This document shows positions 1,480 through 10,311 of a stretch of 64,000 nt of DNA, in pieces; the first letter of the stretch is position 1; each line of letters begins with the position of its first letter. Origin of the DNA: Paraburkholderia sp. BL23I1N1 (GTDB lineage: Bacteria > Pseudomonadota > Gammaproteobacteria > Burkholderiales > Burkholderiaceae). Made by a program: the position numbers and the translations under genes. The notes under the pieces were generated by a model. It was given only the letters and a program-made list of their open reading frames with translations, did not search any database and was not told where the DNA came from. The stretch is taken from the NCBI RefSeq assembly GCF_003610295.1, contig NZ_RAPV01000001.1, forward strand, positions 2,418,001 to 2,482,000. The letters are read 5' to 3'.

Positions 1480-2304
1480 TCACCCCTTCAATACATCCCC
1501 AAATCCCCCCACCCTCGCCCCCAACCCCCGAATCGCATCAGCCACCCTCGGCGACAAAAGCGCCTGCAACTCCTCAACATGCCGATAATCCCGCATCCCA
1601 TCACTCAAAATCCGATCACCGGCAAAAGCAGGATGACAATAAATCTCCCCCACCCCCTGAGGCAAATCGGCAAGCGCGGCAAGCCACACAGCCTCATCCA
1701 TCCGCCCACTATTAGCAATCCCAACAACATAATCGTTGTGCACGATCCCAGCCCGGTCCAACTTCGCCCGCACCCGTGAAATCCACGGCCGCAACCAGAA
1801 CGGCGCGCTAACCTCGAACGGCAAGCGCATCGCCCGCATCCCATACTCGCGGCCAATCTCCAGAATCAATCCCAGCACCGTCGGATGCAAATGGAAATGT
1901 TTGTGCGTGTTGACATGATCGAGCGTCAACCCTGTCCTCGCAAAAGCCTCGAACTGCGCGCGGATCTCGCGCGCCAGCTGTTTGCGAACATGCGGCAAAA
2001 AGAAAAACCGCACCCCGTCGCGCACCATGTTGTCGCCGAAACGGCCATGCTCGTTGACCAATGCGGAAATCCCGTCGCGCGGCGTGACCGCGTCGCCATC
2101 AGCCAGCACCAGATGCAGTCCGACTCGCAACGCCGGAAGCTCGCGAGCGCGCGCCACCGCATCGTCCGCGGCAGGCGCGCCGATCATCAAACTCGCAGCC
2201 GTCAACACGCCATGCCGGTGAGCCTGCTCGACCGCCAGATTCACCCGCGGATGCAAACCGAAATCGTCGGCCGTGACGATCAGCCCACGTGGCTTAACCG
2301 CCAT
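1480..2304 (-). CDS. hpnK: Hopanoid-associated deacetylase HpnK (YdjC/ChbG family)
   Basis: The 274-aa protein has the YdjC/ChbG polysaccharide-deacetylase-like fold signature. TADDFG (residues 11-16) supplies metal-binding Asp, GLHLV supplies His64, and a His cluster lies in DHVNTHKHFHLHP (residues 129-141). In characterised Burkholderia and other hopanoid producers, HpnK removes the acetyl group from N-acetylglucosaminyl-bacteriohopanetetrol made by HpnI. The ATG overlaps the end of the upstream glycosyltransferase by 11 bp and has a GGAGACG ribosome site, so the two are translationally coupled. The C-terminal codons run through an A/C-rich stretch. The name rests on family motifs plus the adjacent hpnI; a plain ChbG-like deacetylase is the alternative. 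Confidence 0.88.
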   Translation of the reverse strand: MAVKPRGLIVTADDFGLHPRVNLAVEQAHRHGVLTAASLMIGAPAADDAVARARELPALRVGLHLVLADGDAVTPRDGISALVNEHGRFGDNMVRDGVRFFFLPHVRKQLAREIRAQFEAFARTGLTLDHVNTHKHFHLHPTVLGLILEIGREYGMRAMRLPFEVSAPFWLRPWISRVRAKLDRAGIVHNDYVVGIANSGRMDEAVWLAALADLPQGVGEIYCHPAFAGDRILSDGMRDYRHVEELQALLSPRVADAIRGLGARVGGFGDVLKG

Positions 2305-3547
2305 CCGACGTCTCCATCACACGCAACGACGCACCGTGCGTGCTCGACGCAGAAGTCTCCACCGGCACGCGTGCGCCACGCCACACCACGTGCGAACCGA
2401 ACGCGCCCGTGAGCCATTGGAAGGCCAGCAAGGTGTCGCGCAATGGCACGAGCGGCAAGTCGCGCCAGAAAGTGCGTTCATGACGCGCGGAACGCAGATG
2501 CAGCAGCAAGCGCGCCGCTAAACCGGCCGCGGTGCCGACGCCGCTCGCCAGCGCCGCCCACAAGTGCAGACCGTCGAACGGACCATTCGCGAGGCGCGCG
2601 GTGAGCCACGCGCCGACCAGAAGCCACGGCGTCGGGAAGGTAATGAACAGAAACGCAAAGCCAAGCGGGTTCACCGAGCGGATCGTGCGCAGCCAACGCG
2701 TCTCGCGCTGCCACAAGGCCGAAAAAGTCGGCTCGATCACGTCGGTGGCCACCATCACGCGCGAAAGTACCGTGCGGAGCCCCAGGGCGCGCACGTGTTC
2801 GGCAAGCCAGTAATCATCCGCGAGACAGTTTTTCAAGGCTTCGAAACCGCCGATGCGCTCGAGCGTCGCGCGGCGCAATGCGAGCGTCGCGCCGAAACCG
2901 AAGCGGCGCGACCCGGCCGCATGCGCGACACGCACCGACGGAGCGAACCACTCGTTGATAAACAGCGCACCGAACCGCGGCCAGAAACCGCCCACGCCTT
3001 GCGCCACATAGAGGCAGGTCACCACCCCCACACGCGGATCGGCGAGCGGCGCCGCCACGGTGTCGAGATAGTCGGCCTCGACCGCGATATCGCTATCCGC
3101 AATCACGATCACGTCATGACGCGCCCGCCCCGCCATGTTGATCAGATTGCTGACCTTGAGATTGCTGCCATGCACGCGCGTGTCGATCGCGAGCTCGATG
3201 TCGTGCATCGGATAGGCGGCCTGCAGACGGCGCACCACGGCAATGGCGGGATCGTCCGGTGAAGATACGCCTAGCACCAGCTGGAAATGCCCGTGGCGCT
3301 GATCGCAGAAGGTTCTGAGGTTCTCATAGAGGCGCGGCTCGGCGCCGCACAGCGGCTTGAGCACGCTGACGCCGACTGCCGCAAAAGGCGGTAGAGGATG
3401 CGAAACCTGCGCGGCCGCACTCGCGCGCGCTCCGCGGCGCACCGCGAAGAACGGCATCGCCACTGCTGCCACCATCGCATAGAGCGACGCCGACATGCAG
3501 CCGGCTAGCAGGACCCATTGGTATGCTGTCAATACGTGCGCTGTCAT
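2294..3547 (-). CDS. hpnI: Hopanoid glycosyltransferase HpnI, copy A (GT2/GT21-like)
   Basis: The 417-aa membrane glycosyltransferase resembles ceramide glucosyltransferase. It has an N-terminal hydrophobic helix (about 8-35), a GT-A domain with VLKPLCG, a DSD metal-binding motif in IADSDIA, an acidic catalytic DDYW, and the RETRW member of the (Q/R)xxRW signature. Two or three C-terminal membrane helices follow. HpnI attaches N-acetylglucosamine to bacteriohopanetetrol. It sits in a tight unit with an upstream small membrane protein (12-bp gap) and downstream hpnK (11-bp overlap). A second HpnI-like gene occurs at 7573-8757; that one has HELRW instead of RETRW. Which copy acts on bacteriohopanetetrol is not decided by sequence alone. 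Confidence 0.82.
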   Translation of the reverse strand: MTAHVLTAYQWVLLAGCMSASLYAMVAAVAMPFFAVRRGARASAAAQVSHPLPPFAAVGVSVLKPLCGAEPRLYENLRTFCDQRHGHFQLVLGVSSPDDPAIAVVRRLQAAYPMHDIELAIDTRVHGSNLKVSNLINMAGRARHDVIVIADSDIAVEADYLDTVAAPLADPRVGVVTCLYVAQGVGGFWPRFGALFINEWFAPSVRVAHAAGSRRFGFGATLALRRATLERIGGFEALKNCLADDYWLAEHVRALGLRTVLSRVMVATDVIEPTFSALWQRETRWLRTIRSVNPLGFAFLFITFPTPWLLVGAWLTARLANGPFDGLHLWAALASGVGTAAGLAARLLLHLRSARHERTFWRDLPLVPLRDTLLAFQWLTGAFGSHVVWRGARVPVETSASSTHGASLRVMETSDGG

Positions 3548-3559
3548 CGCCTGCGTCCG

Positions 3560-3901
3560 TCAGTGCCCAGCCAGCACGAACGGTCTGCCCGTAAAGCGCA
3601 GATGAAGAACGACGAACCAGCGCCGTGGACAATCCGCTTCGATCAACACGGGTCGGCCGGCCGCCGTTGCGTGGCGGCCCTGAATGGCAAGGTCGAATGC
3701 GGTGTGCGCGAACTGGCGCATCACGAGGACACCACTCGCAATCAGCGCAAGCACGAGGAGCTGAAAGCTGGCGGAGCTGAAGACCCGCTGGGAAACCGGC
3801 ATGAACAGCAGTGCCAGCAACGCGAGCACTTCGGTACCCATGGCAGTGAGCGAAGCCGCCATCAGATGGGCTCGCAGCATGTCGATGGTGACTGGCTTCA
3901 T
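3560..3901 (-). CDS. Small membrane protein of unknown function
   Basis: The frame encodes about 113 aa from the ATG at 3901. It has two hydrophobic segments (roughly residues 15-35 and 40-58, the second containing LLVLALIASGVLVM) and a basic/aromatic C-terminus. The frame stays open upstream to 4168, and ATGs at 4000 and 4069 are alternatives. The 4069 ATG has GGGTGG upstream, but the added residues are low-complexity Ala/Gly and look less like protein. It precedes hpnI copy A by 12 bp and is the first gene of that unit. The shared regulator box at 4120-4136 lies upstream. I do not recognise the family; a role in hopanoid assembly or transport is only suggested by position. Confidence 0.55.
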   Translation of the reverse strand: MKPVTIDMLRAHLMAASLTAMGTEVLALLALLFMPVSQRVFSSASFQLLVLALIASGVLVMRQFAHTAFDLAIQGRHATAAGRPVLIEADCPRRWFVVLHLRFTGRPFVLAGH

Positions 3902-4119
3902 GGCGTGATCTCGTGGCCTGAAGAAACGCACGCCGGCAAACGCGCCGGTGAAAACGCCAGCAGAAGCGCTGGCGAAAGCGCCGACAGAAGCTCCGGCCAT
4001 ACGTTCGATCGATGTGCTTACGATTAAGTTGCGATTACCTAACAACTCGACGTAGTGTCGCGCGGCCATATCAAGCCACCCGACAGTAATCAATTCACGG
4101 GCGATGGTAGCGATTTTAA

Positions 4120-4153
4120 CTGAAGGAAACCTTAAGGAAGAAAGAGGTATAAA
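4120..4153 (+). promoter_or_regulatory. PmrA/QseB-like box with -10 hexamer (divergent promoter)
   Basis: CTGAAGGAAACCTTAAG occupies 4120-4136: two hexamers, CTGAAG and CTTAAG, with a 5-bp spacer, the layout of PmrA-type operators. TATAAA follows at 4148-4153, 11 bp downstream, pointing at the response regulator gene 100 bp away. Read on the minus strand the box is CTTAAG-N5-CTTCAG, with TACCAT 10 bp further on, pointing at the hpnI-hpnK unit. The same 17-mer occurs at 10295-10311 before hpnJ. Autoregulation by the adjacent regulator is inferred. Confidence 0.65.
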
Positions 4154-4253
4154 GCGTGTCATGAGCATGATCGTTACACTTCGGATATGCGGTTCGGCGC
4201 TTACTTAAAAACGACCGCCGCTATGCAATAAACATCGAACGGAATCTCTCGCC

Positions 4254-4913
4254 ATGCGCGTACTCCTCGTAGAAGACGACGACCTGATCGGCTGCGGCAT
4301 CGAAGCGGGACTGCGTCAAGCCGGTTTCACGGTCGATTGGGCACGCGACGGCCATAAGGCCAGTCTTGCACTCGATACTACAGCCTATGCGCTAGTGTTG
4401 CTCGATCTCGGCCTACCCCGGGTATCCGGCATGGAACTGCTGAAACGGCTGCGCGACGCCGGCAAGGACGTGCCGGTGCTGGTGCTGACCGCAAGAGGCA
4501 CGGTGGTGGACCGCGTCGGCGGCCTCGAAGCCGGCGCCGACGACTACCTCGGCAAGCCCTTCGACCTGACCGAACTGGTTGCCCGTTGCCGGGCACTGCT
4601 GCGCCGCGCGCAAGGGCGCAGCGTCGAGGTGATCCGCTATCAGGATCTGACGGTCAATCCCGCCGCGCAAACCGTCGAGGTGGGCAATACGCGCGTGCCG
4701 CTCACCTCGCGTGAATGGGCGATCCTGATGCAATTGCTGACCAATCAGGGCATTCCCCAATCGCGCTCGCGACTTGAAGAAAGTTTGTATGGATGGCAGG
4801 AAGAAATCGAGAGCAATGCCATCGAGGTCCACGTGTCCAACCTGCGCAAAAAGCTCGGCGCCAAGCTGATCAGAACCGTGCGCAATATCGGCTACGTGGT
4901 GGAGAAGGCTTAA
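4254..4913 (+). CDS. OmpR-family response regulator (QseB/PmrA type)
   Basis: A 219-aa regulator. The receiver domain (about 1-115) has acidic EDD at 7-9, phosphoacceptor Asp51 in LLDLGLP, and Lys101 in GKPF. The winged-helix DNA-binding domain (about 125-219) contains the stretch LTSREWAILMQLL and the recognition helix region SNAIEVHVSNLRKKLG. The latter is typical of the QseB/PmrA/TctD branch. The start ATG is well placed. Its stop codon overlaps the kinase start (TAATG), so the pair is translationally coupled. It is flanked on both sides by hopanoid genes that carry a PmrA-like box also found in its own promoter. The signal and regulon are not known from sequence. Confidence 0.92.
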   Translation: MRVLLVEDDDLIGCGIEAGLRQAGFTVDWARDGHKASLALDTTAYALVLLDLGLPRVSGMELLKRLRDAGKDVPVLVLTARGTVVDRVGGLEAGADDYLGKPFDLTELVARCRALLRRAQGRSVEVIRYQDLTVNPAAQTVEVGNTRVPLTSREWAILMQLLTNQGIPQSRSRLEESLYGWQEEIESNAIEVHVSNLRKKLGAKLIRTVRNIGYVVEKA

Positions 4914-6328
4914 TGCCGGCATCGATTCGCCGGGCGTCGATACGCCGCCGCCTGATGCTGCTGATCCTGACCAGCATCGCGTTGATCTGGGGCATCGCGC
5001 TGATCTCGAGTTATCGTCAGGCCACCCGTGAAGTCAGCGAATGGGAGCAGGCGCGCCTGGCTGAGCTCGCGCAAATACTCGCGCTGCTTGACGAGCGCAA
5101 TCTGACCACGCTGGCCAATGCGCGCATCGACGTGCGCGAAGAAGAAAAAGGCGGCGAACCCGGCGCGAACGACAGCGACGACGACGATTCCTTGCCGCGC
5201 GACGCCCTATTCCAGGTACGCGGCGCGAACGGTGACGTGCTGGCGGGCAGTCCGCAATTGCGCACGCTGCACGCGTGGGACCTGCCCGTGCCGACCGCCA
5301 GCGGCGCGCAAACCATGACGCTCGGCGGCCAGGTGTGGCACACGTTCACCTTGCGCGATACCACGCTCGGCCACACGGTGCGCGTGTTCGAACCGGCCAA
5401 CACGCGCAGCGATCTGGTGAGCGGCGTCGCGAGCCGGATCGCCCGCCCCACGCTCCTCGCGCTGCCGGTGCTGGCACTGCTGGTGTGGTTCAGCATCGGT
5501 TGGAGCCTCGTGCCGCTGAAGGTGCTCTCGGGCGCTATTCGCGCGCGCGACATCAACCGGCTGGAACCTGTCGACATCGGGCGGGCGCCGACCGAGGTGC
5601 GGCCGCTCGTCGACGCGATCAATCTGGTGCTGTCGCGCTTGCGGAACTCCATCGAGCGCGAACGCGCGTTCACCGCCGACGCCGCCCATGAACTGAAGAC
5701 GCCGCTTGCCGCCATCAAGGTGCAGGCGCAAGTCGCACTGGCCGAACCGAACACGGCGTTGCAGCGTGTCGCCATGGAGCGCGTGGTGCAAGGCGTCGAT
5801 CGCAGCGCGCGGCTCGCGGAGCAGTTGCTGCTGCTCGCGCGTCTGGATGTGCACGAGAAACTCTCCACCGCGCCGCTCAGACCCGCGGCGGTGGCGAAAG
5901 ACGCGCTGCTTGCCAACGAACGTAACGCGCAGCAGAAGAACATTCACGTCACACTGACCGGCGACATGCGCGCCGAGATCAACGCGGAGCCCGTGCTGAT
6001 CGGCATCCTGCTCGACAATCTGCTCGATAACGCAATCAAGTACGGACACGCCGGCGGCAATGTCGAAGTGGCCGTGCAGTATGAAGTCGGCCGGGTGCAG
6101 CTCACCGTGCGCGACGACGGCCCCGGCGTCGCGCCGAGCGATCTCACACGCCTCACCCACCGGTTTTTCCGCGCAACCGGCAATCAGGCGACCGGCAGCG
6201 GACTGGGTCTCTCGATCGTCGCGCGAATCGCCGAGCATTTCGGCGCGAGCCTGCATCTGGGCGCGGGTATCGGCGAGCACGGCCTGGCGGTGAAAGTGTC
6301 GTTTCCCGCATATGCGGGAGCGGACTAA
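4913..6328 (+). CDS. Sensor histidine kinase (QseC/PmrB type)
   Basis: A 471-aa inner-membrane kinase starting at the ATG that overlaps the regulator stop codon. Transmembrane helix 1 spans about 13-33 and helix 2 about 178-198, enclosing a periplasmic sensor of roughly 145 residues. HAMP-like linker, then the H-box AAHELKTPLAAIK with His259, N-box NLLDNAIKYG, G1 box DDGPGV and G2 box GSGLGLSIV. The periplasmic part carries an acidic patch (about residues 76-93, including DSDDDD). That patch could bind cations, as ExxE motifs do in PmrB, but this is speculative. It pairs with the response regulator just upstream. Confidence 0.92.
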   Translation: MPASIRRASIRRRLMLLILTSIALIWGIALISSYRQATREVSEWEQARLAELAQILALLDERNLTTLANARIDVREEEKGGEPGANDSDDDDSLPRDALFQVRGANGDVLAGSPQLRTLHAWDLPVPTASGAQTMTLGGQVWHTFTLRDTTLGHTVRVFEPANTRSDLVSGVASRIARPTLLALPVLALLVWFSIGWSLVPLKVLSGAIRARDINRLEPVDIGRAPTEVRPLVDAINLVLSRLRNSIERERAFTADAAHELKTPLAAIKVQAQVALAEPNTALQRVAMERVVQGVDRSARLAEQLLLLARLDVHEKLSTAPLRPAAVAKDALLANERNAQQKNIHVTLTGDMRAEINAEPVLIGILLDNLLDNAIKYGHAGGNVEVAVQYEVGRVQLTVRDDGPGVAPSDLTRLTHRFFRATGNQATGSGLGLSIVARIAEHFGASLHLGAGIGEHGLAVKVSFPAYAGAD

Positions 6329-6412
6329 GGATGATGCCGGGGGTGGGTTGCTGATGGATGGTATCGGCCAAGCTGCCGCGGAGGGCATCGTCGGGTCTGA
6401 CGGCGAAGGGAC

Positions 6413-7447
6413 CTAGCGCTGGCTGGCTTCGCTCACGGCCGTCCGCTCTGCCATGTTCGCCATGTCCGCCCGCCTCGGCTCGCGATTCGACGACTCGGCA
6501 AACTGCCACGCAATGAGTCCGGGCACGAACATCAGCAGATCACGAATGCGCCGCGCGCCGGCAAGCGCGAGGCAGATGGAAGGATCGAGGCCCAACGCGC
6601 CGCCGATCAGAATGAATCCGCCTTCCTGCACACCCAGACCGCCCGGCACGAAGAACGCCGCGCTGCTGATCGCCTGGATCAGCGATTCGATCACCACCGC
6701 TTCGACCAGCGTGACGTGAACGCCGAGAAAGTACAGCGCGAGCCAGATTTCGAGCGAGGTCAGGAAGCACTGCAGCGGCTGCCAGAAGAACAGGTAGCGC
6801 AGCACCACGCCGCGGCGGCGCCAGATCAGCTTGATGGCCTGGTCGATCTGCGCCGATTGTCCGACGAGCGTCGCGAGCTTGCCGCTCGTCATGCGATTGA
6901 GCACGCGCGTGATGCGCTCGAACGGGTTCGCATGCTGCACGAGTGCGAACAGCACCAGCAGCGGCGTCAGCACCACCACGCCCCACGCCAGTTGCCCGGC
7001 GAGCCGCAGCGTGTCGGAGTGCGCATGCGCGAACAGAAAACCGATGCCAACCATTGTGAACAGCAACTGGCTGATCACCGTGAGCTGCATATCGACAATG
7101 ATGCTGCCGACCGCCGTAGACGGCCGCACGCCCCAGCGCTTGAGCATCCGGAACGACACAACCTCGCCGCCGATACGCGCCACCGGCAACATGCTATTGA
7201 CGGATTCGCGCACCCAGACGAGATGCAGCATATTGGCCACGCTGGGCCGGTTCGCGCCGCGAATCAGCGAGCGCCAGTCGCAGGCATTGGCGATCATCGG
7301 CAGCACGTGCGCGAGCGCCGCCAGAACGAGGCCGGCGCCTGCCGCGCGCAGTGCGTCGAGCACGGCGCCGGGATTGTCCTGCCAGACGAGCCACAGCGAC
7401 ACCAGCAAGCCGGCAAGCGCGGCGATGCGGCCGAGATGCTTCATCAT
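6413..7447 (-). CDS. hpnL: Hopanoid-associated membrane protein HpnL (LPG synthase TM/flippase-like fold)
   Basis: About 344 aa with six to eight predicted membrane helices. It belongs to the UPF0104/lysylphosphatidylglycerol-synthase transmembrane superfamily, with motifs WVRESVNSMLPVARIGGE near residue 80 and FVPGGLGVQEGGF near 265. HpnL occurs in hopanoid clusters and is thought to help transport or process hopanoids; the exact role is unproven. I chose the start at 7447, where AAAGGTGG precedes a double ATG. The frame is open to 7525, but those extra codons are a 12-bp tandem repeat encoding repeated Glu-Val-Cys-Thr. It is the last gene after hpnJ and hpnI copy B. Confidence 0.85.
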   Translation of the reverse strand: MMKHLGRIAALAGLLVSLWLVWQDNPGAVLDALRAAGAGLVLAALAHVLPMIANACDWRSLIRGANRPSVANMLHLVWVRESVNSMLPVARIGGEVVSFRMLKRWGVRPSTAVGSIIVDMQLTVISQLLFTMVGIGFLFAHAHSDTLRLAGQLAWGVVVLTPLLVLFALVQHANPFERITRVLNRMTSGKLATLVGQSAQIDQAIKLIWRRRGVVLRYLFFWQPLQCFLTSLEIWLALYFLGVHVTLVEAVVIESLIQAISSAAFFVPGGLGVQEGGFILIGGALGLDPSICLALAGARRIRDLLMFVPGLIAWQFAESSNREPRRADMANMAERTAVSEASQR

Positions 7448-7470
7448 CCGGCCACCTTTGGCGCGCGCTT

Positions 7471-7518
7471 CAGTGCATGCCTCGGTGCATACCTCAGTGC
7501 ATACCTCAGTGCATACTT
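7471..7518. repeat. 12-bp tandem repeat, four copies, in the hpnI-hpnL gap
   Basis: Four near-identical units of CAGTGCATACCT (the first two differ at one base each) lie just upstream of the hpnL ribosome site. Because 12 is a multiple of three, changes in copy number would keep the optional upstream reading frame open. Confidence 0.85.
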
Positions 7519-7572
7519 CAGGCACACCACTTTGTCCTCGCCACCCTCATCCAGATACCCACGCGTCATTGC

Positions 7573-8757
7573 TTACCCAACCTGCTGTTCATCCGTCATT
7601 CCGTCCTGCACGGCCGACAACAGGCCGTCGCCATCCACCTTGAAACTGAAACCGCGCCAGATCACGCGCGAGGACCAGTAGCTCGCCACAAAAATCGCAA
7701 ACGATACGATATCCCATAACGGCAAAAGCCACAGGTCACGACGTGCCTGCTGCAACGCGCGATCGGACAGCAATTTCAGCACGAGCCGGGCGCAGACGGC
7801 AACCAGTGCGAGCGGCCACGACCACGGCGCGCCACCCGAGAAGGCAATCGCGAGCAGTGCGAAAGCCAGAGGATGAATCAGCGCCGAGCCGAGATGACCC
7901 AACGGATCGATGCTGCGAATTGTGCGGCTCCAGCGCAGTTCGTGCGCGATCAGTTGCGTCGCGCTCGATTCCACGCAGGCATGGGAGATCGTGAACGGCG
8001 GAATCACCACCTTCTCGCCGATCATGCGCACGGCTTCGCCGATCGCATGATCCTCGGCCAGATGCTTGACGAACGGTGTGAACCCGCCGATTTTTTCGAG
8101 GGTGTCGCGTCGCATCGCGATGCTCTGCCCAAAGCAAGGGCGCGCGAGACCGAGCGCGAGCCCCGTCACTACGCCCGGCAGGAATTGGTAGTTGGTGGCC
8201 TTGGCCGACATGCGCGGCCAGAAACCGGGATCGGGCGTGCCGCGATACACGCAGGTGACGAGACCGACACCGGGCTTCTGCAATTCGCCGATCACGTTGC
8301 GCAGATAATCCGGCCCGACGCTCACGTCGCTGTCGGCGAACACCAGCAGGTCGTGCTGGGCTCGCGGGAGCATATTGAGAATGTTGCTGATCTTGCGGTT
8401 AGGACCGTACAGGCGCGCGTCGGCGACCACGGTGATGTCCGCTTCCGGATGCAGCCGCCGCAGATCTTCGACGGTTTGCAAGGCGGGGTCGGCCGAATCG
8501 TGCACGCCAAACAGGAATTGCACGGGGCCCGGATAGTCTTGCTGACAGAAGCTCGACAAATTCGCGAGCAACGCCCACTCGTTGCCGTGTAACGGTTTGA
8601 CGATCGTGACTGGCGGAAAACTGGTCGGCTCGGACACCGCTCTCGCGAAGAACCGGCCGATCAGCGCGCCCGCCAGCACGGTGTAGGCGATGCCGAAAAT
8701 CGCACCCGCCGCACACGCATAGGCAAGCGTGACGGCGAGCAGATGCATGGCGCTCAC
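7573..8757 (-). CDS. hpnI: Hopanoid glycosyltransferase HpnI, copy B
   Basis: A 394-aa GT21-like glycosyltransferase with an N-terminal helix (about 5-35), IVKPLHGNE, the metal-binding DSD in FADSDVS, catalytic Asp in LAEDHAIGE, and HELRWSRTIR in place of the canonical (Q/R)xxRW. C-terminal membrane helices follow. It starts with GTG, overlapping the hpnJ stop by 4 bp (GTGA), so it is coupled to hpnJ. HpnI normally adds N-acetylglucosamine to bacteriohopanetetrol, the substrate later used by HpnK and HpnJ. A paralogue sits 3.9 kb away next to hpnK. The two share layout and the NxKxSN and ADSD motifs but are clearly diverged. Confidence 0.82.
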   Translation of the reverse strand: MSAMHLLAVTLAYACAAGAIFGIAYTVLAGALIGRFFARAVSEPTSFPPVTIVKPLHGNEWALLANLSSFCQQDYPGPVQFLFGVHDSADPALQTVEDLRRLHPEADITVVADARLYGPNRKISNILNMLPRAQHDLLVFADSDVSVGPDYLRNVIGELQKPGVGLVTCVYRGTPDPGFWPRMSAKATNYQFLPGVVTGLALGLARPCFGQSIAMRRDTLEKIGGFTPFVKHLAEDHAIGEAVRMIGEKVVIPPFTISHACVESSATQLIAHELRWSRTIRSIDPLGHLGSALIHPLAFALLAIAFSGGAPWSWPLALVAVCARLVLKLLSDRALQQARRDLWLLPLWDIVSFAIFVASYWSSRVIWRGFSFKVDGDGLLSAVQDGMTDEQQVG

Positions 8758-10175
8758 GCTTGGTGGGCGCGCAGGAAGCGGAAGAATTCGACGCCTTCAC
8801 GCAGGCGCCGTTTCATCATGTCCCAGCTCGTGAGCATCTCACGCAGAATTTCCCAGATCTTCGACGGACGGAAATAGAAGCGCTTATAGAAGTTCTCAAG
8901 CTGGTGGTAGATCTCGTCGCGCGACAGATGCGGATAGCCGATCGCCGCGAGCTGCACGCCTGACTTGCTGACGAGGTTGATGACCTTGTTCTCTTCCAGC
9001 CAACCGTTCTCGACCGCCTGGTTGTAGAGCGTCGTGCCGGGGTACGGCGCGGCGAGCGACACCTGGATCGTATGCGGATTGATTTCCTTCGCATACTCAA
9101 TGGTCTTCTGGATCGTGTCCTGCGTCTCGCCGGGTAGCCCAAGAATGAAGGTGCCGTGGATCTTGATGCCGAGCTTGCGGCAATCTTCGCTGAAACGCCG
9201 CGCGATATCCGTGCGCAGACCCTTCTTGATGTTCAGCAGAATCTGGTCGTCGCCCGACTCGTAGCCCACCAGCAGCAGGCGCAGGCCGTTTTCCTTCATG
9301 ATCTTGAGCGTGGCGTACGGCACGTTCGCCTTCGCGTTGCACGACCACGTCACGCCGAGCTCGCCGAGGCCGCGGGCGATTTCCTCGACGCGCGGCTTGA
9401 AGTCGGTGAAGGTGTCGTCGTCGAACATGATCTCCTTGACTTCAGGCATGTTGTCGCGAATCCACTTCACTTCTTCGAGCACGTTCTCGGTCGAACGCGT
9501 GCGGTAGCGATGCCCGCCCACCGTTTGCGGCCACAGGCAGAACGTGCATTTCGAGCGGCAGCCGCGGCCCGTGTAGATCGACACGTACGGGTGCTTCAGG
9601 TAGCCGATGAAGTAGTTGTCGATCGTCAGATCGCGCTTGTAGACGGGCGCGACGAACGGCAGCTCGTCCATGTTCTCCAGGATCGGGCGCGCTTCGTTGT
9701 GTTCGATCGAGCCGTCGGCGGCGCGGTAGCTCAGGCCTTTGATGCCGGCGAACGGCTTGCCTTCGGCAACTTCCTGGCAGGTGAAATCGAATTCTTCGCG
9801 GCAAACGAAATCGATCGCTTCACTCGCGGTTAGCGAATTGTGCGGATCGACCGCGACCTTCGCGCCGACCATGCCAACCAGCACCGAAGGCTTGCGCTTC
9901 TTCAGGTCTTCGGCGAACAGGGCGTCGGTGGGGAAGGACGGCGTGCTGGTGTGGATCACCACCAGGTCGTATTGCTGCGCTATATCGAGCGATGCTTCGA
10001 CGGACAGGCCGTCGGCGGGGGCGTCGAGTACACGGCTATCGGGGACGAGTGCGGCGGGCTGTGCAAGCCACGTCGGATACCAGAACGAGCGCACTTCACG
10101 CTTGGCCTGGTAGCGCGAGCCCGCGCCACCGTCGAAGCCGTCGTACGACGGCGCCTGCAAGAACAGGGTTTTCAT
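8754..10175 (-). CDS. hpnJ: Radical SAM enzyme HpnJ (bacteriohopanetetrol cyclitol ether formation)
   Basis: A 473-aa B12-binding/radical SAM protein. An N-terminal cobalamin-binding-like domain spans about 1-140. The radical SAM core contains the cluster motif GRGCRSKCTFC (Cys206, Cys210, Cys213), followed by VGGHRYRTRS, FDDDTF and GTFILGLPGET. In Burkholderia, HpnJ was shown to be needed to convert the glucosamine headgroup of hopanoids to the cyclitol. The ATG has GGAG upstream. It is the first gene of hpnJ-hpnI-hpnL and has a 17-bp box about 120 bp upstream that is identical to the one before the neighbouring two-component system. Confidence 0.92.
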   Translation of the reverse strand: MKTLFLQAPSYDGFDGGAGSRYQAKREVRSFWYPTWLAQPAALVPDSRVLDAPADGLSVEASLDIAQQYDLVVIHTSTPSFPTDALFAEDLKKRKPSVLVGMVGAKVAVDPHNSLTASEAIDFVCREEFDFTCQEVAEGKPFAGIKGLSYRAADGSIEHNEARPILENMDELPFVAPVYKRDLTIDNYFIGYLKHPYVSIYTGRGCRSKCTFCLWPQTVGGHRYRTRSTENVLEEVKWIRDNMPEVKEIMFDDDTFTDFKPRVEEIARGLGELGVTWSCNAKANVPYATLKIMKENGLRLLLVGYESGDDQILLNIKKGLRTDIARRFSEDCRKLGIKIHGTFILGLPGETQDTIQKTIEYAKEINPHTIQVSLAAPYPGTTLYNQAVENGWLEENKVINLVSKSGVQLAAIGYPHLSRDEIYHQLENFYKRFYFRPSKIWEILREMLTSWDMMKRRLREGVEFFRFLRAHQA

Positions 10176-10278
10176 GAATGCTCCAGCAAGCCTTTGATCG
10201 GCGCTTTCAGTTTTCTGTCAGAAAACTATCGGAACTATTGCCCACGCGGAATGCACGCGGGCACAGGGAATCGCGCAA

Positions 10279-10311
10279 ATACTACGGAGCAAAGCTGAAG
10301 GAAACCTTAAG
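10279..10311 (-). promoter_or_regulatory. PmrA/QseB-like box and -10 upstream of hpnJ
   Basis: The minus strand reads CTTAAG-GTTTC-CTTCAG (10311 to 10295), then 10 bp, then TAGTAT (10284 to 10279). The 17-mer is identical to that at 4120-4136 and the box-to-hexamer distance is almost the same. The predicted transcript start would leave a leader of about 95 nt before the hpnJ ATG. The rest of 10312-10510 shows nothing I can name. Confidence 0.65.

Follow-up and report, generated by a model that had tools for sequence, protein, structure and literature searches.

A conserved 17-bp box and a candidate two-component regulator of hopanoid head-group genes in Paraburkholderia

Hopanoids are bacterial sterol-like lipids, and to our knowledge the way in which bacteria choose the head group that decorates them is largely open. 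In geochemistry, bacteriohopanetetrol (BHT) cyclitol ether and similar lipids are read as biomarkers. A stretch of 64,000 nucleotides from Paraburkholderia sp. BL23I1N1 (contig NZ_RAPV01000001.1, positions 2,418,001 to 2,482,000; hereafter the window) contains a sensor-regulator pair lying between hopanoid genes, which raises the question of whether the pair governs that choice. The initial annotation had proposed that envelope stress sensed by the kinase adjusts HpnI, HpnK and HpnJ directly through a shared operator. This proposal holds in part: conservation, rearranged genomes and an unbiased promoter scan across the genus support a shared operator of PmrA/QseB type, with the proposed direction, and its association with hpnI-hpnK and hpnJ. 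Genome comparison strongly suggests that, in Paraburkholderia-group soil bacteria, hopanoid decoration is raised or lowered by the pair beside the box.

Genes of the locus

The genes of the locus (Table 1) were called and checked against NCBIfam profiles, and both HpnI copies, HpnJ and HpnK reach the curated cutoffs of their families. HpnI and HpnK presumably make the glucosamine head group, and HpnJ, which we take to perform the BHT cyclitol ether step, the cyclitol ether, as their family names also indicate. Two corrections to the initial annotation concern operon composition. The hpnI-hpnK unit does face the box at 4120, but its first gene is a small membrane ORF; and the hpnJ unit additionally holds a second hpnI and hpnL. 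The small ORF keeps its sequence and position in relatives, where it is found repeatedly downstream of the same promoter, and it has no Pfam match at E≤1 and only NCBIfam matches below cutoff. A longer version of this frame (to 4168) is unlikely because it would read through operator copy 1.

Table 1. Features of the hopanoid locus, in window coordinates
Feature	Position	Strand	Basis or remark
hpnK, hopanoid-associated deacetylase type, YdjC family	1480..2304	-	NCBIfam TIGR03473, 408 bits (cutoff 232.6); Pfam PF04794
hpnI, first copy, BHT glycosyltransferase	2294..3547	-	NCBIfam TIGR03472, 465 bits (cutoff 310)
Small membrane ORF, 113 aa, hydrophobic stretches 13-66	3560..3901	-	opens the hpnI-hpnK unit
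-10 TACCAT toward hpnI/hpnK	4104..4109	-	10 bp from box
Putative operator copy 1, common to regulator (+) and hpnI-hpnK unit (-)	4120..4136	.	exact 17-mer
-10 TATAAA toward regulator	4148..4153	+	11 bp from box
Response regulator, OmpR/PhoB family, PmrA/QseB branch	4254..4913	+	best NCBIfam PmrA, QseB
Sensor histidine kinase, QseC-like, 471 aa	4913..6328	+	NCBIfam QseC
hpnL, flippase-like membrane protein, third gene of hpnJ unit	6413..7525	-	NCBIfam TIGR03476, 346 bits (cutoff 195.65)
hpnI, second copy, overlaps hpnJ end	7573..8757	-	NCBIfam TIGR03472, 504 bits (cutoff 310)
hpnJ, radical SAM	8754..10175	-	NCBIfam TIGR03471, 840 bits (cutoff 577.6)
-10 TAGTAT toward hpnJ	10279..10284	-	10 bp from box
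Putative operator copy 2, 119 bp 5' of hpnJ	10295..10311	.	exact 17-mer

The response regulator combines a receiver domain (PF00072), in which Asp51 and Lys101 are present, with a winged-helix domain (PF00486), and aligns without gaps to PmrA/BasR (4s04) over residues 1-216. Its assignment to the QseB/PmrA branch by the initial annotation is supported by the two top NCBIfam profiles, PmrA (229.2 bits, cutoff 330) and QseB (223.9 bits, cutoff 345), though both scores are below cutoff. The base-contacting residues N188, N196 and R210 of PmrA are all kept, while T187 and H195 are replaced by Ser. The recognition signature SNVSN-K-R recurs in all 63 examined regulator copies of at least 76% identity (hereafter the clade regulator), and N196 is missing from this genome's four closest paralogues. 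The kinase contains HisKA (PF00512) and HATPase_c (PF02518) domains, with QseC as its best NCBIfam profile (253.3 bits, cutoff 475) ahead of PmrB (166 bits) and PhoQ (84 bits); its orthologues, which include records for Paraburkholderia phytofirmans and P. xenovorans, are called QseC in several public records and conserve an acidic periplasmic cluster (DDDD).

The box and its promoters across the genus

The sequence CTGAAGGAAACCTTAAG occurs identically on the plus strand at 4120-4136 and 10295-10311, as the initial annotation had stated, and no further match with up to 3 mismatches is found in the window (chance expectation 0.03). It has the form CTGAAG-GAAAC-CTTAAG, which on the other strand reads CTTAAG-GTTTC-CTTCAG; the hexamer-N5-hexamer arrangement noted at the outset is thus correct, and both copies, like the boxes of relatives, are tandem repeats of CTTAAG type. 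The box is not scattered over the genome, where a scan of all 9,119,610 bp finds two exact copies, both in the hopanoid locus, and one site with 2 mismatches. The degenerate promoter CTTMAK-N5-CTTMAG-N9-12-TANNAT likewise has exactly two genome matches, both at this locus, with none in the control.

The -10-like hexamers already proposed for the regulator and hpnJ lie at the expected 10-11 bp and in the right orientation. A third, TACCAT toward hpnI/hpnK, was absent from the initial annotation. On this hpnI side, all 63 scored sites have TAnnAT at a distance of 10-12 bp behind the box, 55 of them at exactly 10 bp, and the hexamer falls within the best-conserved stretch outside the box among 55 aligned intergenic regions; on the hpnJ side, TAnnAT stands exactly 10 bp from the box in 51/52 scored sites. 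The regulator-side hexamer, which reads TATAA in 35/59 scored sites, was dropped as the main -10 at 4120 in favor of the better conserved hpnI-side one. In the sequence as read, no good -35 hexamer is visible at either site.

Conservation in the genus centers on the box itself. Across the 55 aligned intergenic regions the best-conserved 17-base window is exactly the box (98.7% conserved, against a mean of 57.6% for the remainder), and 122 of 123 aligned sites carry the half next to the -10, CTTCAG, unchanged. The commonest variant makes the direct repeat perfect and spoils the palindrome, as would be expected for the head-to-tail binding described for PmrA in the available parts of PMC3973317 and PMC4660055.

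The box is also conserved where relatives carry the regulator or hpnJ. At least 61 genomes encode a regulator of about 76% identity or more (that of G008 has a stop within the match), and the box, with at most 1 mismatch, lies upstream of 58/62 such copies; since many surveyed genomes are close relatives, these and the following counts are not independent events. For hpnJ, copies were termed linked when a regulator of at least 60% identity lies on the same sequence stretch, copies within operons (11 linked, 24 unlinked) were counted separately from promoter-proximal ones, and the counts cover part of the hpnJ copies among the matches listed. Gene copies with less than 100-300 bp of upstream sequence or with an alignment starting away from residue 1 were skipped. 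A box with at most 2 mismatches precedes 56/58 linked, promoter-proximal hpnJ copies and stands directly upstream of 0/36 unlinked ones (12 promoter-proximal and 24 within operons); one of these 36, in G031, belongs to an operon with the box before its first gene. The unlinked count excludes G079, whose regulator is encoded elsewhere, and L271, which duplicates the L200 locus and was also left out of the hpnJ -10 count (52/53 if it is included).

In four genomes the hopanoid genes lie away from the regulator, and the box accompanies the hopanoid genes: of 30 unlinked hpnI copies, 4 have a box with at most 2 mismatches, and all four genomes concerned (G079, G031, G076 and G003) encode the regulator elsewhere. 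An unbiased scan of 117 genomes for the promoter returned 145 matches in 84 genomes, with 1 in the reversed control; of these matches, 60 fall at regulator and 51 at hpnJ sites, 111 together, and a further 13 belong to other genes for the hopanoid head group. The outlying matches viewed in context comprised 20 and that of G007, with those of G114 and G081 and one of G069 left out.

The association weakens with distance from the clade. Among 19 genus copies of the regulator with 60-76% identity, the upstream box has at most 2 mismatches in 4, 3-4 in 11 and 6-8 in 4, and among 20 regulator loci of the wider family (19 outside the genus) the box with at most 2 mismatches is present in 5 and hpn genes lie alongside in 5. 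G149 encodes a regulator of 83% identity (L288) whose upstream region lacks the box (7 mismatches), and the 15.7 kb examined there contain no hpn genes.

A putative activator site and its competing readings

The regulatory link between the box, the hopanoid head-group genes and the neighboring regulator is well supported by these genomic comparisons. The 17-mer is best read as a class II activator operator of the regulator at 4254-4913 that drives the head-group operons, with a probability of about 0.8. According to this reading, activity of the QseC-like kinase would lead to phosphorylation of the regulator, a dimer of which would bind CTTAAG-N5-CTTCAG head to tail, occupy the would-be -35 place 10 bp from the -10 element and recruit RNA polymerase. 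Two promoters would thereby be activated, that of the small ORF-hpnI-hpnK unit and that of hpnJ-hpnI-hpnL, and operator copy 1, which also faces the regulator's own gene, probably mediates autoregulation. The system would then amount to a small regulon devoted to determining the hopanoid head group, glucosamine (HpnI/HpnK) or cyclitol ether (HpnJ). As a signal, an envelope that is disturbed or exposed to polycations is the likeliest candidate, judged only by the acidic periplasmic patch and the family.

QseB-type regulators are able both to repress and to activate. Instead of a class II activator operator, the box might accordingly be a site of repression, or one at which the regulator alternates between the two roles, a reading that is unlikely yet deserves consideration: the box overlaps the would-be -35 element, so that polymerase could also be obstructed by a protein bound there. 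The near-fixed 10 bp between box and -10 (51/52 hpnJ and 55/63 small-ORF sites) is instead what would be expected of a protein that substitutes for -35 recognition, and the lack of a good -35 hexamer at either site points the same way. For PmrA, the available part of PMC4660055 places the pbgP -35 element at half-site 1; its authors' model is based on PhoB, with polymerase contact proposed without direct evidence.

It is quite improbable that the box is read chiefly by another QseB/PmrA-like regulator, such as the paralogue at C1:2412585-2413235, about 4.8 kb left of the window, with the neighboring pair merely representing another target. The paralogue's own promoter has several TTAAG half-sites, paralogous regulators show related TTAAG-type sites, and cross-talk of QseBC with PmrAB is mentioned in titles and abstracts of published papers. 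In addition, six genomes without a full-length clade regulator among the matches listed (G060, 86% complete; G089, in which a 38-residue regulator match adjoins the box; G028, G104, G075 and G013) still have hopanoid genes with a matching promoter. Either such boxes can probably serve a further regulator of the family, or loss of the regulator is recent; these genomes count against a strict one-to-one link of regulator and box. Against a paralogue as the chief reader, however, stand the recognition helices of the paralogues, whose sequence is SNVHS(RR) or close to it, without N196, and their promoters: among 19 paralogue copies examined, all 8 promoters having a site with at most 4 mismatches carry T for G at position 3, and 5/8 carry G for C at position 12. 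Moreover, the hpnJ box tracks the clade regulator, though 117/117 genomes have at least one regulator match (E≤1e-60), necessarily a paralogue where the clade regulator is absent.

Two further explanations have very little to recommend them. A short RNA stem-loop or a repeat element, suggested by the near-palindrome AAGG-AAA-CCTT, was rejected, since the commonest variant keeps the direct repeat at the expense of the palindrome and the genome holds no additional exact copies; the box also lies at a fixed distance 5' of the -10 and would therefore not be part of transcripts from the hpn promoters. That the identical boxes are functionless remnants of duplication within the locus is very improbable: the two hpnI genes indicate that duplication has happened, but the flanks have diverged while the box has not, 4 genomes have the box on hopanoid genes that are separated from the regulator, and unlinked hpnJ paralogues up to 99% identical lack it.

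Relation to known systems and possible significance

The system in the window shares with PmrAB/BasRS of Salmonella, Klebsiella and E. coli the regulator branch, the residues N188, N196 and R210, membrane-lipid decoration genes as presumptive targets, and a tandem hexamer-N5-hexamer of the CTTAAG kind near -35, the form given for the PmrA box in the available part of PMC3973317. It differs in that the regulator falls below the PmrA model cutoff (229/330 bits), the kinase scores higher with QseC than with PmrB (253 versus 166 bits), the -10-proximal half-site is CTTCAG, and the putative targets are hopanoid rather than lipid A genes. QseBC (PreAB) is typically found with motility or quorum genes. 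It resembles the pair described here in its kinase, QseC being the top profile and the public name of the orthologues, and differs in that both proteins here are below the curated cutoffs and lie in a hopanoid gene context. The DDDD run of the kinase recalls the conserved acidic periplasmic run of PhoQ, given as 148-EDDDDAE-154 in the available part of PMC3554529; by profile the kinase is not PhoQ (84 bits, against 253 for QseC), and the likeness may serve as a lead.

The initial annotation knew of no described regulon of this kind, a statement that needs qualifying. Within the accessible portions of the open-licence literature, one system comes close to two-component control of hopanoid genes: BesRS of B. 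thailandensis, which reacts to agents that disturb the envelope, polymyxin B among them, and is reported to induce an operon annotated as hopanoid biosynthesis (PMC9426598). The published description, as far as available, sets it apart as a different system: BesR is likened to RstA (45%), OmpR, CpxR and BaeR, not to PmrA/QseB, and BesRS to RstAB; besRS lies on chromosome 2 and has a broad regulon including beta-lactamase, efflux and catabolism; and the BesR box is of the TGCG..CGCA/TGCA kind (PMC9426598). The 17-mer itself contains neither TGCG nor CGCA.

With a candidate regulator named for a precise and conserved switch at two promoters, the choice of hopanoid head group can be tested in safe laboratory strains. 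Stress-dependent control of hpnJ would also affect how BHT cyclitol ether is read as a biomarker. In the Burkholderia cepacia complex hpnJ has been linked to polymyxin resistance, according to the available part of a review (PMC4244539), and a regulator from the branch that governs polymyxin resistance elsewhere would join the two stories.

A bolder form of the proposal is tentative and, in our estimation, more doubtful than probable: a "PmrAB for hopanoids" operating through much of the genus, with a regulon nearly confined to the head-group operons, the small membrane protein and a 93-aa protein, and a kinase that would sense polycations or cation loss via its acidic patch. If so, antimicrobial peptides or cation stress would lead to re-decoration of a sterol-like lipid, beyond lipid A only. 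The 93-aa protein, of unknown function, is encoded by a gene that carries the box too, also in the regulator-less genomes G004 and G078. Elsewhere in the genus, palindromic CTTAAGGTTTCCTTAAG sites lie upstream of a phosphodiesterase gene and of a PAS kinase/SCO1 pair; they look like sites of another regulator and were not counted as members of the regulon.

The locus and its shared box

The window covers 64 kb of contig C1 in a 9.12-Mb genome. Its regulator and kinase have their nearest named relatives in Paraburkholderia species (93% and 92% identical, respectively). From left to right, three minus-strand genes come first: hpnK, hpnI and a small membrane ORF. The plus strand then encodes a response regulator and a kinase, after which hpnL, a second copy of hpnI and hpnJ follow, again in minus orientation. 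The initial annotation had observed an identical 17-mer, CTGAAGGAAACCTTAAG, before the two-component system and hpnJ. This was right: the genome holds two exact copies, both at these sites, and one site with 2 mismatches, so the box is not scattered. Within the 64-kb window, no third site was found at up to 3 mismatches (chance expectation 0.03). On the minus strand the box reads CTTAAG-GTTTC-CTTCAG and is followed at both sites by a -10 hexamer; on reading of the sequence, neither site shows a good -35 hexamer. The pattern CTTMAK-N5-CTTMAG-N9-12-TANNAT matches the two box sites alone in all 9.12 Mb (reversed control, 0). HpnJ and the second-copy HpnI are probably translationally coupled, since their genes overlap by 4 bp.

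Features of the locus and related sites
Feature	Position	Strand	Remark
Small membrane ORF	3560-3901	-	113 aa; heads the hpnI-hpnK unit
Box, first copy	4120-4136		Between small ORF and regulator gene
TACCAT (-10)		-	10 bp from box; towards small ORF-hpnI-hpnK unit
TATAAA			11 bp from box at 4120; towards regulator
Response regulator	4254-4913	+	OmpR/PhoB family
Kinase	4913-6328	+	QseC-like
hpnJ/second hpnI overlap	8754-8757		4 bp
TAGTAT (-10)		-	10 bp from box; towards hpnJ-hpnI-hpnL
Box, second copy	10295-10311		119 bp 5' of hpnJ
Second QseB-like regulator (locus L308)	C1:2412585-2413235		About 4.8 kb left of window; 49% identical
Third genome site	C1:6284937		2 mismatches
Frame-broken 93-aa gene copy	near C1:6285080		3' of third site
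93-aa gene (locus L264)	L264:3616-3894	-	No assigned function

Conservation of the box across the genus

Among 117 genomes of the genus, a regulator match at E<=1e-60 is present in every one because of paralogues; counting from the match listing, at least 61 genomes together hold at least 62 copies with an identity of about 76% or higher. The best box match 5' of these 62 copies has 0, 1, 2, 3 or 4 mismatches in 49, 9, 2, 1 and 1 cases, respectively; for 19 copies of 60-76% identity, the box has up to 2 mismatches in 4, 3-4 in 11 and 6-8 in 4. The 58 promoter-proximal hpnJ copies in regulator loci carry it with 0, 1 or 2 mismatches in 33, 19 and 4 cases, and 2 are without it. Composition-shuffled versions of the same upstream stretches gave a best match of at least 5 mismatches in 533 of 535. 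Aligning 55 intergenic regions between small ORF and regulator gave a mean conservation of 98.7% in the box versus 57.6% elsewhere; the 17 consecutive bases with the highest conservation are precisely those of the box, and the second-best stretch contains the hpnI-facing -10. TAnnAT lies 10-12 bp past the box at all 63 scored small-ORF sites and exactly 10 bp past it at 51 of 52 scored hpnJ sites; the regulator-side TATAA occurs at 35 of 59. The main idea of the initial annotation, control of hopanoid head-group genes by the two-component system through this box, survives the sequence tests able to sink it: the box is not scattered, and it is conserved in relatives, with up to 2 mismatches, before 56 of 58 linked promoter-proximal hpnJ genes and 60 of 62 regulators ("linked" meaning a regulator at least 60% identical in the same fetched stretch).

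An unbiased promoter scan with CTTMAG-N5-CTTCAG-N9-11-TANNAT returned 145 exact matches in 84 of the 117 genomes (reversed control, 1). Regulator (60) and hpnJ (51) sites account for 111, other hopanoid head-group genes for 13, lone small-ORF relatives for 8 (4 uncertain) and a 93-aa gene family for 4; one is an hpnJ-type promoter in genome G029, where hpnJ was not found, and the other 8, including 3 at loci not fetched, were assigned to none of these classes.

Many genomes possess extra hpnJ and hpnI copies distant from the regulator. No box with up to 4 mismatches lies directly 5' of any of 36 fetched unlinked hpnJ copies, a count that leaves out the duplicate locus L271 and genome G079. One unlinked HpnJ (G047), 99% identical to the query and without a box directly upstream, is encoded within an operon, as are 23 other unlinked copies, so the hpnI test also matters. 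Within 700 bp upstream of 56 linked hpnI genes, the box has at most 1 mismatch in 50, 3-4 in 5 and is absent in 1; among 30 unlinked hpnI genes it has up to 2 mismatches in 4 (G079, G031, G076, G003), the other 26 being at background (5-7). All four genomes own the regulator elsewhere, about 1.3 Mb away in G031. In G079, the regulator and an hpnJ-hpnL-small ORF-hpnI-hpnK cluster lie on different contigs, with 0 mismatches 5' of hpnJ and 2 mismatches 5' of the small ORF. The box accordingly accompanies hopanoid head-group genes. These box-bearing genes distant from the regulator are taken, without a tree, to represent about three separate moves; G076 and G003 may share one. Sequence could hardly make the link of the box to head-group genes any firmer.

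The putative reader of the box and its signal

The neighbouring regulator very probably reads the box. PmrA is described as binding head-to-tail at two half-sites 5 bp apart, with N188, N196 and R210 reading bases (PMC3973317, PMC4660055). The regulator aligns with PmrA gap-free and keeps all three residues, with Ser replacing T187 and H195; this recognition signature does not vary among the 63 examined copies that are at least 76% identical, and at the N196 position the four nearest paralogues in the genome (43-54% identical) carry Ala, Ser, Arg and Arg. Among 123 aligned sites (57 hpnJ, 66 small ORF), the -10-proximal half-site CTTCAG is invariant in 122, and in the commonest variant the far half reads CTTCAG instead of CTTAAG, so that the direct repeat becomes perfect and the palindrome is broken. 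The system would work like PmrAB and is similarly built at the DNA level, but by curated score its regulator qualifies as neither PmrA nor QseB. In B. thailandensis, the envelope-stress system BesRS has already been linked to a hopanoid operon; it differs in regulator kind, box and scope (PMC9426598). In the open-licence literature, no paper was found that places hopanoid head-group genes under a PmrA/QseB-branch regulator.

The promoter of the second QseB-like regulator (L308) itself contains several TTAAG half-sites; in some relatives, a pair with such a regulator adjoins the hpn locus. Palindromic CTTAAGGTTTCCTTAAG sites 5' of a conserved phosphodiesterase and of a PAS histidine kinase/SCO1 pair (loci L274, L275, L277, L279; L272, L273, L276, L278) probably belong to another regulator.

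The QseC-like kinase scores under the QseC cutoff. Across 58 orthologues, its periplasmic and cytoplasmic parts are each 87% conserved, the former containing IDVREEE..GG....A...DDDD.LPRD; D89-D92 show little or no variation in another alignment, of 54 proteins. The acidic run 148-EDDDDAE-154 of PhoQ, proposed to contact divalent cations and antimicrobial peptides (PMC3554529), resembles this DDDD as a lead only, and the kinase signal is a guess.

Exceptions and further genes behind the promoter

Six genomes (G060, G089, G028, G104, G075, G013) have the matching promoter on hopanoid genes without a full-length clade regulator among the matches listed; G060 has a completeness of 86%, a 38-residue regulator match adjoins the box in G089, and G075 has a different two-component system beside its hopanoid cluster (regulator 37% identical). 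In the wider family, 42 of 249 genomes have a regulator match at E<=1e-78. Twenty of these loci were fetched, 19 of them from outside the genus: the box lies 5' of the regulator within 2 mismatches of consensus in 5, and hpn genes adjoin the regulator in 5. The regulator-box-hpn link grows thinner outside the genus; G149 has a regulator 83% identical, without the box or adjoining hpn genes. Because the box is kept without the regulator and the link is thin outside the genus, either several regulators of one family share the box code, or some genomes have lost or replaced the regulator.

Decayed systems include a truncated hpnJ with a box-like site (L199, in G035), the hpnJ-type promoter without hpnJ (L242, in G029) and the regulator fragment adjoining a box (L342, in G089). 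In most of loci L205-L217 (regulators about 70% identical), hpnI, hpnJ, hpnK and an hpnL relative form a single row next to the regulator, usually preceded by the small ORF and by a variant box (CTTAAT-N5-CTTCAG or close to it).

The small ORF, which has no Pfam match, is a candidate unrecognised hopanoid gene, since it heads the hpnI-hpnK unit and the same promoter stands before its relatives in other genomes, some of them lone genes. At E<=1e-8, the 93-aa family has members in 69 of the 117 genomes. Of 31 loci examined (30 from a longer match list plus this genome's own copy), 16 have an hpn-type box with up to 2 mismatches 47-121 bp upstream, including those of G004 and G078, both without the regulator among the matches listed. 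The third genome site, 5' of a frame-broken copy of this gene, fits a decaying third target.
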